Source: Amycolatopsis sacchari (GTDB taxonomy: Bacteria > Actinomycetota > Actinomycetes > Mycobacteriales > Pseudonocardiaceae). Taken from it: a stretch of 64,000 nt of DNA. Shown piece after piece: positions 22,257-32,635 of the stretch. The position numbers were made by a program, and so were the translations under genes. The notes under the pieces were generated by a model. The model ran no database searches. It was not told where the DNA came from and was given only the letters and a program-made list of their open reading frames with translations. Each line of letters starts with the position of its first letter. Positions within the stretch are counted from its first letter, which is position 1. The stretch spans positions 62,001 to 126,000 of the forward strand of contig NZ_FORP01000014.1 in assembly GCF_900114035.1 (NCBI RefSeq), in the 5' to 3' direction.

Positions 22257-23159
22257 ATGACGGGCGCCTTCGACAACCATTCCTTCCGCACCGCGATCGT
22301 CCCCGCCGCGGGGCTGGGGACACGCTTCCTGCCTGCGACGAAAGCAGTTCCGAAAGAGCTGCTGCCGGTCGTGGACACCCCGGGCATCGAGATCGTCGCG
22401 GCGGAGGCGGCACAGGCGGGCGCGAAGCGGCTTGTGATCGTGACCTCACCGGGCAAGGAGTCGGTGGTCAACTACTTCCGCTCGGCGCCGGAGCTCGAAG
22501 AGAACCTGGAGCGCAAGGGCAAGACCGAGCTGCTGGAGAAGGTCCGCCGCGGCCCGGGGCTGCTGGACGTCGAGGTCGCCATCCAGAAGGAGGCGCTGGG
22601 GCTGGGGCACGCGGTCGCGCAGGCCGAGCCGAACCTGACCGACGAGGACACCGCCGTCGCGGTCCTCCTGCCGGACGACCTCGTGCTGCCGGCCGGGGTG
22701 CTCGAGCGGATGGCCGAGGTCCGCGTGAAGCACGGCGGCAGCGTGCTGTGCGCCTTCGACATCCCGAAGGAGCAGATCTCACCCTATGGCGTGTTCGACG
22801 TCACCGATACGGACGAAGAAGATGTCAAACGAGTGCACGGGATGGTCGAGAAGCCGAAGCCCGAAGAGGCTCCCTCGACGTTCGCCGCCGCGGGCCGTTA
22901 CCTGCTCGACCGGGCGATCTTCGACGCGCTGCGCCGCATCAAGCCGGGCGCGGGTGGTGAACTCCAGCTCACCGACGCGGTGGCACTGCTGATCGAAGAG
23001 GGACATCCGGTGCATATCGTGGTGCACCGGGGTGGCAGGCACGACCTGGGCAACCCCGGCGGGTTCCTGCGGGCGGCGGTCGATTTCGCACTCGACCACC
23101 CCGACTACGGCCCGTCGCTGCGCACCTGGCTCGCCGAGCGAATCGAGAACAAAGGCTGA
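22257..23159 (+). CDS. galU: UTP-glucose-1-phosphate uridylyltransferase
   Basis: A 300-residue nucleotidyltransferase that makes UDP-glucose. The nucleotide-binding motif is AAGLGTRFLPATKAVPKE near residues 17-34, followed by VVDTPGIE, LPDDLVL and VEKPKPEEAP. It begins at ATG 22257 and its stop shares one base with the moeA start (TGATG). UDP-glucose serves trehalose, glycan and Leloir metabolism, linking it loosely to galT upstream. Confidence 0.94.
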   Translation: MTGAFDNHSFRTAIVPAAGLGTRFLPATKAVPKELLPVVDTPGIEIVAAEAAQAGAKRLVIVTSPGKESVVNYFRSAPELEENLERKGKTELLEKVRRGPGLLDVEVAIQKEALGLGHAVAQAEPNLTDEDTAVAVLLPDDLVLPAGVLERMAEVRVKHGGSVLCAFDIPKEQISPYGVFDVTDTDEEDVKRVHGMVEKPKPEEAPSTFAAAGRYLLDRAIFDALRRIKPGAGGELQLTDAVALLIEEGHPVHIVVHRGGRHDLGNPGGFLRAAVDFALDHPDYGPSLRTWLAERIENKG

Positions 23160-24427
23160 TGACCCCGTCCACCCCGGAGCCTGCAGAGGCCGCTGAGCAG
23201 GAGTTCCGTCCCGTCGACGAACAGCTGGCGCTGGTACTGGATTCGGCCGTGCGGCCGCGGCCGGTCCGGGTCGCCATCTCCGAGGCGCAGGGCCTGCTCT
23301 GCGCCGAGGAGGTCGTCGCGGAGCACGCCCTGCCCGGCTTCGACCAGGCCGCGGTGGACGGGTACGCCGTGCGCAGCGTGGACGTGCGCGCGGCGGGCGA
23401 CGAGCCCGTGCAGCTGCCGGTGGTGGGCGAGATCCCGGCGGGTTCGCGGCAGCCGCGGCGCCTGAACCCCGGCCAGGCGGTGCGGGTCGTGACCGGCGCG
23501 CCGCTGCCGACGCTGGCCGACGCCGTGGTGCCGACGGCGTTCACCGACGGACATCCCGCGAACGTGACCGTGCACCGGTCCGTGCCCTCGGCCGGCTACG
23601 TGCGGCGGACCGGCGAGGACGTGCAGATCGGGGACGTCGCCGTGCGCCAGGGTGACACGATCGGCTCGGCCCAGGTCGGGCTGCTCGCCGCGGTCGGCCG
23701 GTCCAAGGTGCTGGTCTACCCGCGTCCCCGGGTGTCGATCGTGTCCGTCGGCGACGAGCTGGTCGACATCGACCGGACGCCCTCGGTCGGGCAGGTCTAC
23801 GACGTCAACTCCTACGCGCTGGCCGCTGCCGCGCGGGACGCCGGTGCGGAGGTGAGCCGCGTCGGCATCGTGCCGAGCGAGCCGAAGCGGCTGCGTGAGG
23901 TCGTGGAGGGCCGACTGCTGATGTCCGAGGTCGTCGTGGTCGCCGGCGGGGCCGGGGGCACGACGGGCGACGAGGTGCACGCGGCCCTGTCCGACCTCGG
24001 GCACATCGACATGACGCGCGTCGCGATGCACCCCGGCTCGGCGCAGGGGTTCGGCCGTCTAGGGCCGGACTCCGTGCCCACGTTCCTGTTGCCTGCCAAC
24101 CCGATGAGCGCGCTGGTGGTGTTCGAGGTGCTCATCCGGCCGTTGATCAGGGCGGCCCGCGGCACGCGCAACCCGCACCGGCGGATCGTCAGCGCCCGGC
24201 TGCTGTCGCCGATCACGTCGACCAAGGGGCGCAAGGGTTTCCTGCGTGGCCAGCTGCTGCGCGACGAGAGCACGGGCGAGTACCTCGTGCAGCCGCTCGG
24301 GACGTCGGGTGCGCACCTGCTGGCGTCGCTGGCCGAGGCGAACTGCCTGGTGAACGTGGACGAGGACCTCACGGAGGTGCCCGCGGGCGAGCAGGTACGG
24401 GTGACCTTCCTCGCACAACGGGTGTGA
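23159..24427 (+). CDS. MoeA-family protein, probably the gephyrin-like divisome protein Glp
   Basis: A 422-residue MoeA/gephyrin-type protein. The N-terminal MoeA domain carries GFDQAAVDGYAVRS, the central MPT-binding domain carries VSIVSVGDELVD and GGAGGTTGDEVH, and the C-terminal domain begins near 340. MoeA inserts molybdate into molybdopterin. In corynebacteria the homologue at this locus (Glp) instead binds FtsZ and a membrane receptor GlpR. Here the receptor-like gene lies two genes downstream, so a divisome role is likely. The two roles cannot be separated from sequence alone. Confidence 0.85.
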   Translation: MTPSTPEPAEAAEQEFRPVDEQLALVLDSAVRPRPVRVAISEAQGLLCAEEVVAEHALPGFDQAAVDGYAVRSVDVRAAGDEPVQLPVVGEIPAGSRQPRRLNPGQAVRVVTGAPLPTLADAVVPTAFTDGHPANVTVHRSVPSAGYVRRTGEDVQIGDVAVRQGDTIGSAQVGLLAAVGRSKVLVYPRPRVSIVSVGDELVDIDRTPSVGQVYDVNSYALAAAARDAGAEVSRVGIVPSEPKRLREVVEGRLLMSEVVVVAGGAGGTTGDEVHAALSDLGHIDMTRVAMHPGSAQGFGRLGPDSVPTFLLPANPMSALVVFEVLIRPLIRAARGTRNPHRRIVSARLLSPITSTKGRKGFLRGQLLRDESTGEYLVQPLGTSGAHLLASLAEANCLVNVDEDLTEVPAGEQVRVTFLAQRV

Positions 24428-26123: not shown

Positions 26124-26196
26124 GGGGCTGTAGCGCAGTTGGTAGCGCGTCTCGTTCGCATCGAGAAGGTCAGGGGTTCGATTCCCCTCAGCTCCA
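26124..26196 (+). tRNA. tRNA-Ala (anticodon CGC)
   Basis: A complete cloverleaf. The acceptor GGGGCTG pairs with CAGCTCC, the anticodon loop TTCGCAT sits on a TCTCG/CGAGA stem, and the T arm is GGGGTTCGATTCCCC. Loop positions 34-36 are CGC, which decodes GCG. The last 24 bp plus two bases are repeated 1.27 kb downstream, the hallmark of use as an integration target. Confidence 0.95.
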
Positions 26197-26198
26197 CA
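26173..26198 (+). repeat. Candidate attachment repeat, copy 1 (tRNA-Ala 3' end)
   Basis: This 26-bp segment, GGGGTTCGATTCCCCTCAGC followed by TCCACA, recurs at 27447 with one mismatch (G to C at the eighth base). A tRNA 3' end duplicated at the far side of a short foreign-looking segment is what a tyrosine-recombinase element leaves at its ends. Confidence 0.75.
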
Positions 26199-26377: not shown

Positions 26378-26690
26378 CCCGTTCGCGGTGCTGAAGTACG
26401 CCGCCTCCCTCAGCGAAGATGACGTCCGCTACGTCGAGGCCGCGTTCACCGCACACGAGGTCGAGGCCATGACCACCGCTGAAACGACCGAGGGTGCGCA
26501 CGAACTCATCCAGGCGTGGCACGCTTCCGGCCGGCCGCTCGCGATCGTGAGCAACAACAGCGCCGCCGCGATCAGCACATACCTCGACTTTCACGGCATC
26601 CGCCCGCTCGTCGACGTGGTGTCCACACGCGAGAGTGCAGATGTCGGACTCCTCAAGCCGCGTCCCTACCTAACCCGTGCCCTCGCCTGA
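26376..26690 (+). pseudogene. HAD-family hydrolase fragment, N terminus missing
   Basis: The frame reads NPFAVLKYAASLSEDDV, then GAHELIQAWHASGRPLAIVSNNSAAA (in two parts), then LDFHGIRPLVDVV and LLKPRPYL. This is the middle and C-terminal part of a HAD-type phosphatase, with the motif II Ser/Asn region and motif III Lys present. The N-terminal DxD nucleophile motif is absent, and there is no start codon with ribosome-binding site. It is a decayed or truncated gene. Confidence 0.65.
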
Positions 26691-26942: not shown

Positions 26943-27353
26943 TCAAGCGCGTTTCCCGAGCCCTGGTAACCCGCCGGACACTGCTCGGAGGCTGATTCGG
27001 GGCTCATGCTTGGACTCGGAACGGCGGGTGCGCTTCGTGCGAGGTCTCGTAGCGATCCTCTCTCGTAGCCAGCGTTTGCCTGCCGACTGGGTTCGCAACG
27101 CAGCGAGCGCTGCCTCCAGTCGTTTCAGGTAAGCCGTTCTCTCGGTATCGGCGAGATCAGCGTCGTTGATGTCGGTTGCCAGCTGGTCTACTTGCCTCCG
27201 GGCCGATGCGCGAGCCGCATCCCGCTTAGCCTGCATAGCCTCGCCGGAGGGAGCACGTACCGTCCAAGCCTGGAGGTAAAGCTCGACGTGCTTCTCGACG
27301 CGCCGAACCTCTCGCTCGTGACGAGTTATGGGGTTGGAGCGTCTTGCATTCAT
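26943..27353 (-). CDS. Hypothetical basic helical protein in the tRNA-Ala scar
   Basis: A 136-residue Arg/Ala-rich protein predicted largely helical (EVRRVEKHVELYLQAW, then RRQVDQLATDINDADLADTERTAYL in two parts). It starts at ATG 27353, lies between the duplicated tRNA ends, and has mixed, less GC-biased codon use. I do not recognise it. It could be cargo of the former element or part of a degraded gene. Confidence 0.4.
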   Translation of the reverse strand: MNARRSNPITRHEREVRRVEKHVELYLQAWTVRAPSGEAMQAKRDAARASARRQVDQLATDINDADLADTERTAYLKRLEAALAALRTQSAGKRWLRERIATRPRTKRTRRSESKHEPRISLRAVSGGLPGLGKRA

Positions 27354-27446: not shown

Positions 27447-27472
27447 GGGGTTCCATTCCCCTCAGCTCCACA
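27447..27472 (+). repeat. Candidate attachment repeat, copy 2
   Basis: GGGGTTCCATTCCCCTCAGC followed by TCCACA repeats the tRNA-Ala 3' end (26173-26198) with one mismatch. No other part of a tRNA is present here, so this is not a tRNA gene. It would mark the distal end of the inserted segment. Confidence 0.75.
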
Positions 27473-29570: not shown

Positions 29571-30983
29571 CTACGCGGGATCGCGGTAGCGGTGCAGCAT
29601 GTGGTTGAACCTCCGCAACTTGTCGACAGCGTCCCCCGGGATCGGGTCCGGGTGGAAGTGCATGACGTTGTTGCGGATGAGGCGGATCTCCTCCAGGCGT
29701 GCGATGAAGGTGGGCCGGTCCAGTGGCCATCCCAACTGTTCCCAGACTTCCCTGTTCTCCAGGATGTGCTGGTAGTCGCCGAACGAGAGCTGGTCGGCAT
29801 TCTTGATCGTCCTGCTGCAGAAGCGCTGCAGGGTCTCCACGTCGAAGGCGCGGCCCAGAATCCAGCGGAGCGTCCGATCCAGCTCGCCCAACTGGAAGAA
29901 CGGCGTGGCCATCTCACCGTAGCGCTGGGCTACGTCGGCCGTCGTCACGATGCCCTTGATGCTCTTGCTTTCGTCCAGTACGAACACGAATTCGCGCCGT
30001 TGCAGGGTGGGCAGGACCTCGAAGAGATCGCGATCGTAGGCGACCACCTCCACGTGGGGCTCGATCGCGTCACCGACGCCCGCGCTGGGCTTCTGGTGCA
30101 TCGCCTGCGCGATCGATCGCCAAGTGACGGCACCGCGCAAGTTACGAGGGCCACTGAGGACGGCGAGCTGCGAGTAGTCGTTGAGAAGCATCTTGGTGAT
30201 CGCTTCTTCAAGCGTGCTGTTGGGCGCCACGGAGGCGACGCCGGTGAGAGGAGAGAGGTTTCCCACCGTGAGCCGTACATCCAGGTCGGTGCCTCCCTCG
30301 TCGTCCTCGGCGACCGGGAGATCATCGAGGTCAGATCGCGCGGAAAGGGCAGCACTCTCCACTTCGTCGGGTGGTGTCGTCAGCGAAACCACGGTGTCGA
30401 GGGTCACCGCTCGGAAGCTCGGGGAGGTCATCAACCCGTGATTGGCCAGATCCGCTTCGATCTGACTGACTTGGTCGCCGCGCTCTGTCGCGCCCCAGAG
30501 GGCCAGGAGCTCGCGCACGGAGATCCGCTCTGGGGCATGCTCCTCGGCGCGGTTGCGCGCCTGCCGCAATCGTTCGTGGACCCGCCGCCGGATCGTGTCC
30601 TCGCTCGGCGGGTGCGCGGTGGCCGCGGCCCTGGAAATAGTCTGGTCGAGCAACTCCTGGCGCACCGCGTCCAACAGCCGATCCTGGTCGACCACCAGCC
30701 ATGCACGCCACCCGTCGACCGCTCGCATGCCGGCCGCGACCATGGCAGCCCGCGAAGGTGACCGGAACTCCTCGCCGTCGGGCTCGAGCCGGATCCGGCC
30801 CCGGTCGGTCACGGTGGCGTCGTACGTCACCCCGATGCGGTTGCGCTTGAACCTGAGCTTCGTGCCACTGGTGATGAGCCCCGCATCGAGCAGATCGGAA
30901 ACCGTCACGCGGCGGCCGCCGAGGAGGTACATCGACCGGCCGCCCGCCTCATTGCCGCGGTCCTCCGTCGTTTCGCCCGTCAC
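29571..30983 (-). CDS. RAMA - CBS - CBS - HEPN-like protein
   Basis: A 470-residue soluble protein with four parts. Residues 20-105 resemble a RAMA domain (LLDAGLITSGTKLRFKR, GVTYDATVTDRGRIRL), a family found with DNA-modification systems. Residues 152-205 form a winged-helix-like segment. Residues 245-355 are a CBS pair, expected to bind adenosine nucleotides. Residues 360-465 are helical and carry R437-N-N-V-M-H442, matching the R-x4-6-H motif of HEPN ribonucleases. It is the last gene of a three-gene operon, 6 bp after the SAP-like gene. The domain calls come from pattern reading; a nucleotide-gated RNase effector is inference. Confidence 0.75.
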   Translation of the reverse strand: MTGETTEDRGNEAGGRSMYLLGGRRVTVSDLLDAGLITSGTKLRFKRNRIGVTYDATVTDRGRIRLEPDGEEFRSPSRAAMVAAGMRAVDGWRAWLVVDQDRLLDAVRQELLDQTISRAAATAHPPSEDTIRRRVHERLRQARNRAEEHAPERISVRELLALWGATERGDQVSQIEADLANHGLMTSPSFRAVTLDTVVSLTTPPDEVESAALSARSDLDDLPVAEDDEGGTDLDVRLTVGNLSPLTGVASVAPNSTLEEAITKMLLNDYSQLAVLSGPRNLRGAVTWRSIAQAMHQKPSAGVGDAIEPHVEVVAYDRDLFEVLPTLQRREFVFVLDESKSIKGIVTTADVAQRYGEMATPFFQLGELDRTLRWILGRAFDVETLQRFCSRTIKNADQLSFGDYQHILENREVWEQLGWPLDRPTFIARLEEIRLIRNNVMHFHPDPIPGDAVDKLRRFNHMLHRYRDPA

Positions 30984-30989
30984 CGGCGC

Positions 30990-31694
30990 TCACCACCTCC
31001 GGAGTCCGGCGAACTTGCGCCGGGCCGCGATCGCTTGTTTCAGCACCCTTTTTTCCAGTTCTGCCTGGCTGAGCCGCTCCACCCGCGTGAGCTGCAAATG
31101 ACCCGCGACGGCGAGCAGACTCTCCCGGTCGAGATCCTGCGCGCGGAGGTACGCGGTGCCCTCTTCCTCGGTATCGAGTTGGCGCAGGTGTGAGGCAATG
31201 GCCGCTGCCTCCTCGTCGGTCTTCGCGGGTTCGGCGGACGTTCGCGAGACCCGGGTGCTCGCCATTTCGTTCCCGCGGACGTCCGCTCGGCCGGGGCCGC
31301 AACGGGCCAGCAGGTCGACGAGTTCGGCACGTTTCAAGGCGCTGTAGCCGGTCAGACCGAGAATCCTGGCCACCTCTCGCAGCTCTTTCACGCGTAACGC
31401 GCTCGCGTTCAAGTAGATCCGTCGTTGCTGCTCCGAAGCCAGCGACGACATTTCGTGGGCCACTTGGAGTGGACTGCCCGAAGGAGATGCGGCGAGAACG
31501 GGCGGCGCCGGAGCGGGGCCCGCGTGCACGTCTTCGCGAGGTGGCGAGCTGACCGGTACTGCTGATGCCTCCACGCGGACAACGCCCAGCTTCGCTGTAC
31601 CTCTGGTCAGCGCTTCCAGTGTCGAGTCGTCCTGCTGTTCCAAGAATTCGTAGAGCCGGGCCTGGAGGACGACGAACTTCCTCAAGTCGTTCAC
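30990..31694 (-). CDS. Protein with two SAP/Rho-N-like helical repeats
   Basis: A 234-residue protein: a short N-terminal helix, a Pro/Ser/Ala-rich linker (about 45-75), a helix-extended-helix at about 97-131 (VKELREVARILGLTGYSALKR) of the SAP/Rho N-terminal type, a second linker and a related module at about 184-222 (ESLLAVAGHLQLTRVERLSQ). Such modules usually bind nucleic acid. It starts at GTG 31694, overlapping the ParA-like gene by GTGA. A role as DNA-binding adaptor between the ATPase and the RAMA-CBS-HEPN protein is inferred. Confidence 0.65.
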   Translation of the reverse strand: MNDLRKFVVLQARLYEFLEQQDDSTLEALTRGTAKLGVVRVEASAVPVSSPPREDVHAGPAPAPPVLAASPSGSPLQVAHEMSSLASEQQRRIYLNASALRVKELREVARILGLTGYSALKRAELVDLLARCGPGRADVRGNEMASTRVSRTSAEPAKTDEEAAAIASHLRQLDTEEEGTAYLRAQDLDRESLLAVAGHLQLTRVERLSQAELEKRVLKQAIAARRKFAGLRRW

Positions 31695-32635
31695 CGGTGA
31701 CCACCCGGCAGCAGGTCGAGCGCGCCCAGGACCTCGTCGGCCAACTGGTCGAATTCTTTGACGACCTCGTCTCTGCCAGTGGCTCGCAACATCGCGGGCA
31801 CACCACTTTCCCCGGCATCACCGAAGTGTCGGGGGCTGTTTCGGATCTTGCTCTCCAGCACCGGTACCTGCGAATTCAGACGTACTTCCTCGATGTAGGT
31901 GTGCTGAGCAAGAGTCACTTGTTGTGAATAGATCTGCACCATCGTGAAGACCACGCCGAGGAACGCGGGATCGATCGGTCGGTGGCTGTCGGCCGTGCGC
32001 TTGTGATTGACGAAGTCGTTGAACTGCTGTACCAGCACCGCACAATTACCCACCAGGTAGTCCAAGCCGAGTGTGGACAGGTAGTCGGCCTTGGCCGGCA
32101 CGAGGATTTGCTCACTGGCTACGATCGCGGTCTTCGTGACGAGGCCGAAATTCGGTGCGCAGTCGATGAGCACCAGGTCGTATTCACTGAAACGGTCGTC
32201 CTCGAGTGCGTGCCGCAGACAGCTGTGCAGGTCCAGAAACTTCCGCTTCGACCCGTCGAGGGTGGTGGCTCCGCCCAACCGGGCGGCGAGTTCGAGGTCT
32301 ATGTCGATCAGGCCGAGGTGAGAGGAAATCAGGTCGAGGTGGCCGCCTGGATGGTCGATGGCTTCGTTGACCGGCTTCGGGGTAACGATGAGATCTGCCA
32401 GCGAGATCTCTCGTCCCGGCAGCTCGGCGTCGTACCACCGCTTGATGGTGCGTTCGTCCTTGAGATTCGCATGCCAGTCATCGATCGAGAAGAACGAGAA
32501 GGTCAGGTTGGTCTGCGGATCGAGGTCGATGAGCAGCACCCGCAAGCCCCGGCTCGCGGCGACCGCGCCGAGATTCGCCGTGAGGGTGGTCTTCCCGACT
32601 CCGCCTTTGTAATTCATGACCGCCACGACCCGCAT
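31691..32635 (-). CDS. ParA/MinD-family ATPase
   Basis: A 314-residue deviant-Walker ATPase: YKGGVGKTTLTANLG at residues 9-23, LLIDLDPQTNLTFSFF for the A' motif and LVLIDCAPNFG for Walker B. It resembles plasmid/chromosome ParA but no ParB or parS-like repeats are evident nearby. ATG 32635 has GGGGAGAG at good spacing, preferred over upstream in-frame starts. It heads a tightly coupled operon with the SAP-like and RAMA-CBS-HEPN genes. The AT-richer DNA at 32690-32880 should hold the promoter. Confidence 0.85.
   Translation of the reverse strand: MRVVAVMNYKGGVGKTTLTANLGAVAASRGLRVLLIDLDPQTNLTFSFFSIDDWHANLKDERTIKRWYDAELPGREISLADLIVTPKPVNEAIDHPGGHLDLISSHLGLIDIDLELAARLGGATTLDGSKRKFLDLHSCLRHALEDDRFSEYDLVLIDCAPNFGLVTKTAIVASEQILVPAKADYLSTLGLDYLVGNCAVLVQQFNDFVNHKRTADSHRPIDPAFLGVVFTMVQIYSQQVTLAQHTYIEEVRLNSQVPVLESKIRNSPRHFGDAGESGVPAMLRATGRDEVVKEFDQLADEVLGALDLLPGGHR

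Follow-up and report, generated by a model that had tools for sequence, protein, structure and literature searches.

DS-11 of Escherichia coli is described as a single-protein anti-phage system with CBS and HEPN domains. Its defence is abolished by the CBS mutation Y157A, which affects an adenine-contacting tyrosine, and by HEPN mutations, and its activating adenine derivative is given as not known (PMC13092281). A 2013 survey predicts dyads of ParA/Soj and HEPN genes (MAE_18760) to be toxin-antitoxin systems and notes HEPN-CBS fusions (PMC3710099), and a RAMA fusion is mentioned for another system (PMC12839542). Here, a three-gene operon is analyzed that lies in a stretch of 64,000 nucleotides of Amycolatopsis sacchari (assembly GCF_900114035.1, contig NZ_FORP01000014.1, positions 62,001 to 126,000), referred to as the window. 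It encodes a ParA/Soj-type ATPase, a Rho_N/SAP-like protein termed the adaptor, and an effector with RAMA, CBS, and HEPN parts (Table 1). We favor, with moderate confidence, its interpretation as a horizontally transferred abortive anti-phage unit based on a ribonuclease (RNase), in which ParA and the adaptor would control or position the effector. No description of a ParA-adaptor-RNase operon was found in open-licence PMC full text, a search that had bioRxiv outside its scope and covered the matching papers in part.

The genes run in the order ParA, adaptor, effector, with a 4-bp overlap between the first two and a 6-bp gap before the third. Their place and tight coupling had been given correctly by an earlier reading made from the letters of the window (the sequence-only reading). 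A scan with one genome per species, which detects close relatives only, returned 20 effector loci. All 19 actinobacterial orthologues, aligned over RAMA too, carry the three genes in this order; the adaptors of L012 and L013 (loci and genomes are cited by our own labels) were missed or weakly matched by BLAST, and were read at the locus and confirmed by a hidden Markov model (HMM). The twentieth locus, L021 of Epilithonimonas, with 34% identity, has no ParA match within its 17 kb. Among 249 genomes of the family of the window, a full-length effector orthologue of at least 62% identity occurs in 11, with ParA adjoining in all 11. In a ParA profile search, the identical 11 genomes had a close ParA (E no higher than 3.8e-171) and four further genomes a distant one (1.2e-106 to 1.4e-76). 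The chance of this agreement for independent labels is 2e-19, a figure of descriptive value only, given the relatedness of the genomes and the linkage of the genes. The operon occurs in one of 16 listed genomes of the genus. Adding the window itself and L089-L092, four new loci from the family, brings the close copies examined to 24, and the order is kept in 24/24. The 4-bp overlap is present in 22/22 intact copies, in which the effector start ranges from a 7-bp overlap to a 16-bp gap after the adaptor; L018 and L020 were excluded from this count because of interrupted frames in their records. The three-gene unit is real, conserved, and mobile, and the co-occurrence elsewhere that had been proposed as a check was recovered in both surveys (19/19 loci and 11/11 genomes).

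The effector matches RAMA (PF18755) with 79.1 bits over a cut-off of 35.2 and CBS in two stretches with an E of 4.1e-11, so that the RAMA-like N-terminus and the CBS pair of the sequence-only reading both stand. Residues 157-463 score 279.6 bits against the NCBIfam model NF053863 (DS11_antiphage, cut-off 260). The HEPN part is assigned by motif and family score: R437, N438, and H442 do not vary among 28 aligned rows, and the three residues are present in 15/15 compared proteins, including members from E. coli, Rhizobium, and Epilithonimonas. The window effector itself had no match to a Pfam HEPN model at E up to 1. The E. coli family member L132 (404.9 bits to NF053863) was taken from a chromosome-sized record filed among plasmids, and its identity with the experimentally tested DS-11 is not established. 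Its Tyr157 in DYSQLPV aligns with Y270 of the window effector in DYSQLAV, a position that is aromatic in 14 of the 15 compared proteins and Val in L094. PADLOC, applied to the three window proteins, matched PDC-S14 across the RAMA part (2.3e-14) and gave weak ATPase matches, and nothing else. By its NF053863 score the effector core is DS-11-type and hence already known, and the candidate of an undescribed effector was rejected. The earlier guess at the effector is otherwise largely right, since RAMA, the CBS pair, the HEPN motif, and the conserved DS-11 residues are all present. A CBS-gated HEPN effector, also proposed there, agrees with the mutations made by others in the relative DS-11, which needs both parts (PMC13092281). 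The protein probably cuts RNA.

The window ParA matches Pfam AAA_31 with 122 bits (E 3.4e-35), and ParA/Soj chains are among its best solved-structure relatives in a PDB profile comparison. Its start Met and the KGGVGKTT motif, by which the ATPase had been recognized before, are invariant in 23 aligned rows. Mean column identity is 80% for ParA, 73% for the effector, and 46% for the adaptor. Rho_N matches the window adaptor below threshold (21.3 bits, E 2.7e-4, cut-off 24.9). At a lax limit of E 1, Rho_N is matched by 21 of 22 aligned adaptor orthologues, window included (best 4.5e-9), and SAP by six of the 22 (best 1.1e-6). PDB profile matches of the adaptor were weak (Rho 0.022, Ku SAP region 0.065), and neither the window adaptor nor the 22 orthologues had a Pfam match to the ParB family. 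The C-terminal repeat aligns with distant adaptors (hhalign 98.5%, E 1.6e-15), one of which matches Rho_N there just under the cut-off (23.4 bits, E 6e-5). Of the two nucleic-acid-binding-like repeats claimed in the sequence-only reading, the second thus has distant counterparts and the orthologues match Rho_N or SAP, with the Rho_N match of the window protein itself staying below the cut-off. The first repeat is absent from the shorter adaptors of three Micromonosporaceae copies (L012, L013, and L022), and because these copies keep an adaptor without it, it is not essential to the unit. Conservation centers on the N-terminal stretch and on the C-terminal repeat, whose basic tail resembles ARRKFAGLRKW.

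Related ParA genes occur in 32 of 81 genomes of one genus. Eleven of these loci were read; the adaptor adjoins ParA in ten, and the remaining locus is truncated at the edge of its contig. No RAMA-CBS-HEPN homologue was found in the 11 loci by BLAST and no convincing HEPN motif was seen; their neighbours were not scanned for PIN. At L121, the product of the third gene (405 aa) has a HEPN match of the RiboL-PSP type (2.8e-5, 24.5 bits, below the cut-off of 28.4) and contains the motif RRNKIAHEYD, and at L185 a protein 45% identical to it is encoded convergently with the ParA-adaptor pair. At L228, L231, and L234, a PIN_8 nuclease is encoded in third place (E 1e-62 to 1e-70), ParA is 35-42% identical to that of the window, and the adaptor was found by HMM. 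A tree built from 56 ParA proteins unites those of the 24 RAMA-CBS-HEPN loci in a single clade (100/99) and those of the three PIN_8 loci in a second (100/98); the clade of the two HEPN rows (97/90) was flagged as long branches meeting and is unsure. Adaptor-only (18) and adaptor-less (9) rows are interspersed, with an adaptor in 47/56. This is a single tree of uncertain root, so that effectors may also have been lost. As distant pairs stand without a recognized effector or adjoin other HEPN (two loci) or PIN_8 RNases (three loci), the pair gives the impression of a reusable module, which argues for a separable pair that was joined to RNases more than once. A HEPN-motif scan near the distant ParA genes returned chance-like matches besides L185, and a profile comparison between the two types of effector gave no alignment of their HEPN parts. 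P0004-type proteins occur in 9/296 genomes of the class, and none of the eight loci examined had a ParA match in the stretches examined. As a separate observation, the N-terminal start of the third protein of L121 (5011-7561), whose C terminus is of the RiboL-PSP HEPN type, resembles some DS-11 homologues by eye.

The operon lies near a transfer RNA (tRNA) gene in the window. A copy of the 26-nt 3' end of tRNA-Ala(CGC), 96% identical, is found 1.27 kb beyond the tRNA, in line with the integration scar that had been proposed, and the operon stands 2.1 kb outside the repeat pair. The 3' end of the effector gene faces a tRNA-Ala 3' end at 3.4 kb in the window, 14 bp in L003, 50 bp in L005, and 6.1 kb in L020; no tRNA was found near the operon in the examined stretches of the other 20 copies. 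Considering the six nearest called genes per side, eight of the 24 copies have no gene family in common with another copy, and L007, L009, L011, L012, and L019 have one flank family in common with other copies. Longer common flanks are seen in six Amycolatopsis-type loci (L090 has two of their genes), two Actinoalloteichus loci, and the pair of window and L005. As a yardstick for transfer, one conserved gene of the window (23159-24427), read as MoeA-like, was compared. Its best identities in the host genomes are 94% for L003, 68% for L004, 76% for L010, 40% for L013, and 41% for L022, with only partial matches of at most 51% for L020, and low values may be paralogues. ParA identities to the window at these loci, in the same order, are 86, 82, 76, 63, 64, and 85%, respectively. 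The operon is more alike than the yardstick in Nocardia L004 (68% vs. 82% for ParA and 79% for the effector), in Fodinicola L020, and, with caution for paralogues, in the Micromonosporaceae, which points to transfer; at L010 (76% vs. 76%) it is not more alike and transfer is not indicated. Some copies thus appear to have crossed families, which points to horizontal movement of the unit among soil actinobacteria. The accessory, mobile setting suspected before is borne out by the varied flanks, the tRNA-Ala ends, and the identities relative to the yardstick. Short reading frames between the tRNA-Ala end and the scar (26388-26690 and 26943-27353), one of them HAD-like in our reading, resemble remnants of an older insertion.

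Table 1. Coordinates of the operon, its domains and motifs, and the tRNA setting in the window, with the ParA-adaptor-PIN_8 loci in the last row
Feature	Position	Strand	Basis or remark
ParA/Soj-type ATPase, 314 aa, deviant Walker A KGGVGKTT	31691..32635	-	Pfam AAA_31 and motif alignment
Adaptor, 234 aa: N-terminal stretch, Rho_N/SAP-like repeat, conserved C-terminal repeat, basic tail ending ARRKFAGLRRW	30990..31694	-	
First Rho_N/SAP-like repeat of adaptor, residues 101-126, sub-threshold in window protein	31317..31394	-	Coordinates derived by hand
Second (C-terminal) adaptor repeat, residues 157-232, common to distant adaptors	30999..31226	-	
Effector, 470 aa, RAMA-CBS-CBS-HEPN	29571..30983	-	
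RAMA domain of effector, residues 15-114	30642..30941	-	PF18755, E 2.9e-22
CBS pair of effector, about residues 245-355	29919..30251	-	
Effector Y270, aligned with Tyr157 of an E. coli DS-11 family member	30174..30176	-	
HEPN motif R437-N438-x3-H442 of effector	29658..29675	-	
tRNA-Ala (CGC), likely integration site	26124..26197	+	
tRNA-Ala 3' end, first copy of 26-nt direct repeat	26173..26198	+	
tRNA-Ala 3' end, second copy (scar), 96% identical	27447..27472	+	
ParA-adaptor-PIN_8 loci	L228:4731-7535, L231:4570-7314, L234:6391-9201		Family f99 of same class

The neighbour survey comprised 144 genes (up to four per side of 18 loci, and six window genes), of which 31 were dropped by hand before scanning and 113 submitted; the near-duplicate loci L008, L014, L016, L017, and L092 were left out. 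A strong, traced neighbour of restriction or defence type was found in at least three of the 18 sampled loci, with type IV restriction endonucleases in L022 (1.6e-271) and L004 (7.4e-113) and a PDC-S37/Hhe-like match in L013 (5.5e-212); ten of the 113 neighbours were scanned one by one. Weaker matches were REase_II in L012 (5.3e-15) and SspH in L007 (2.5e-10), and the gene of origin of one strong UzuA match (6e-92, one member) was not traced. The control consisted of 113 genes drawn at random from 126 candidates in 18 regions at coordinates of our choice, several on operon-bearing contigs. Its best match was 8e-47 (UvrD-helicase model), yet 53 models were matched compared to 29 for the operon neighbours. 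A defence-island setting was rejected as main support; most sampled neighbours are ordinary, and the location near defence genes expected by the sequence-only reading applies to few loci. A phage or plasmid home was rejected as well, given the lack of copies among phage records and viral contigs and the partial nature of the plasmid matches (ten plasmid records match the effector, none over 80% of its length).

Relatives of the effector also occur in other gene settings. DS-11 cores stand beside GmrSD_N (PF03235) proteins in two-gene loci (L095:5338-8123 and L097:7065-9907) and behind an N-terminal part that matches no Pfam model at E 0.01 in L085, L094, and L096. The RAMA-CBS-HEPN proteins of L149 (5356-8444), L147 (5495-8382), and L087 (6641-8656) begin with roughly 200-250 additional residues, and a common 320-aa second gene without a Pfam match lies downstream in L147 and L149. 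In a Rhizobium plasmid (L133:5932-9366), a DS-11-type gene is followed by one annotated as a PIN-like domain-containing protein, and in the Epilithonimonas locus (L021:7929-10450), such a gene lies 17 bp upstream of what we read as a type I restriction methylase-like gene. L082, L083, and L084, the last split into two frames, carry RAMA-CBS-HEPN without ParA in a common neighbourhood with a gene that we read as UvrA-like. In the phylum search with NF053863, 255/296 genomes gave a match and one exceeded the cut-off, with 13/14 controls matching and none above it; judged by their match ranges, these are mostly other CBS proteins.

RAMA is a reader of modified DNA. In the mechanism we infer, the effector would be a DS-11-type CBS-HEPN ribonuclease with RAMA fused in front, and ParA-ATP with the adaptor would hold or position it on host DNA, where RAMA may touch DNA, perhaps modified DNA. 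Infection would then change the DNA or the ATPase state, which, together with an adenine nucleotide on the CBS pair, would switch on RNA cleavage by HEPN. The anti-phage role is drawn by analogy from DS-11, which reportedly needs its CBS tyrosine and HEPN residues. The pair is probably a DNA-associated control module, separable and reused with other RNases. The three-gene unit and the other RNase partners of the pair suggest an undescribed modular defence system.

Several observations weigh against this interpretation. The window effector is just 30.6% identical to the E. coli member L132, and DS-11 functions as one protein, so that defence in itself does not require ParA and the adaptor. RAMA-CBS-HEPN genes with no ParA beside them are found in L082, L083, and L087 (42-44% identity), the last slightly under the NF053863 cut-off (253.2 vs. 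260 bits). In one genus, that of G452, a full-length RAMA-CBS-HEPN is present in five of 81 genomes, and two of the five have such a ParA, located elsewhere in the genome in G452 and on another contig in G726. An obligatory ParA for every RAMA-CBS-HEPN was rejected on these loci and genomes. Conversely, 18 of the 56 ParA loci have an adaptor without a recognized effector and nine more have no adaptor, including one that is truncated at the edge of its contig. Frames are interrupted in the records of two of the 24 copies, L018 and L020. Transfer is not indicated for Nocardia L018, where yardstick and ParA are both 68% identical. Most sampled neighbours are ordinary, as judged from 25 of 145 Pfam families for the 113 neighbours, and no copies of the operon were found in the phage records or viral contigs searched.

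The alternative that survives best, possible if on the doubtful side, is a toxin-antitoxin system in which ParA and adaptor form an antitoxin that restrains the HEPN RNase, as for the MAE_18760 dyads, with phage defence through antitoxin loss. It was predicted for such dyads in the 2013 survey (PMC3710099), and it agrees with the gene order, in which regulator-like genes come first and the RNase last in tight coupling, and with a ParA-adaptor pair that adjoins three RNase types. However, DS-11 is reported as a one-protein system (PMC13092281), RAMA-CBS-HEPN genes without adjacent ParA exist, and kinship with MAE_18760 is not established, as no Pfam HEPN model matched the effector. The exact version of the sequence-only reading, in which ParA patrols DNA, the adaptor tethers, RAMA reads modified DNA, and CBS gates HEPN, is rather unlikely: its predicted domains are present and the Walker motif of ParA is invariant, but three copies do without the first Rho_N/SAP repeat.

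That ParA and the adaptor serve a mobile element in partition or positioning, with the effector as an addiction or cargo gene, is improbable. The resemblance of ParA to Soj/ParA segregation ATPases, the four copies facing tRNA-Ala ends, and the pairs without recognized effector fit such an element. However, the adaptor has no ParB-family match, the RNase is linked in 24/24 copies, and the ten plasmid records that match the effector all do so partially, none reaching 80% of it; no integrase, relaxase, or replication family appeared among the same 25 of 145 Pfam families, although no search was aimed at integrases. A housekeeping operon for RNA control without a role in conflict would suit the mostly ordinary neighbours, but is very improbable given the patchy presence (11/249 family genomes, one of 16 listed genus genomes), the horizontal transfer, and an effector family for which anti-phage action is reported (PMC13092281).

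A lineage with an effector of the DS-11 kind strictly tied to ParA, a Rho_N/SAP-like adaptor, and RAMA gives access to the trigger of such an RNase and to the means of its silencing. The role of ParA, be it restraint, positioning, patrol, or guard, is the interesting question. Control of three unrelated RNases by the pair, if real, would place partition-type ATPases among the regulators of bacterial immunity, and the 2013 ParA/HEPN prediction becomes directly testable. In a bolder and unlikely extension, ParA and the SAP/Rho_N-like adaptor would be a general, nucleoid-seated chassis for interchangeable RNases (RAMA-CBS-HEPN, RiboL-PSP-type HEPN, and PIN_8), a guard of nucleoid integrity made from partition parts that would release its RNase when phage take-over alters the host DNA or the ATPase cycle.

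Among the closest known systems, DS-11 resembles the operon in the effector, which here has a CBS pair and HEPN, exceeds the family cut-off, and conserves the CBS Tyr and the HEPN Arg, Asn, and His. DS-11 is one protein, whereas here a RAMA domain precedes the CBS-HEPN core by fusion and the gene comes third in an operon with ParA and adaptor in 24/24 copies, at about 31% identity to an E. coli member. The GmrSD_N loci L095 and L097 likewise contain a DS-11-type effector, there beside a restriction-type protein, but no ParA, adaptor, or RAMA was found in them. With the ParA/Soj segregation ATPases, the window ParA has KGGVGKTT and the AAA_31 domain in common, and ParA/Soj chains are among its best solved relatives; in contrast to ParABS, its partner is Rho_N/SAP-like without a ParB match and it is coupled to an RNase-type gene. 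As in the MAE_18760 dyads, a ParA-type ATPase gene adjoins a HEPN RNase gene; unlike in the operon, no adaptor, RAMA, or CBS is named for those dyads in the accessible portion of the survey (PMC3710099), and no Pfam HEPN model matches the window effector.

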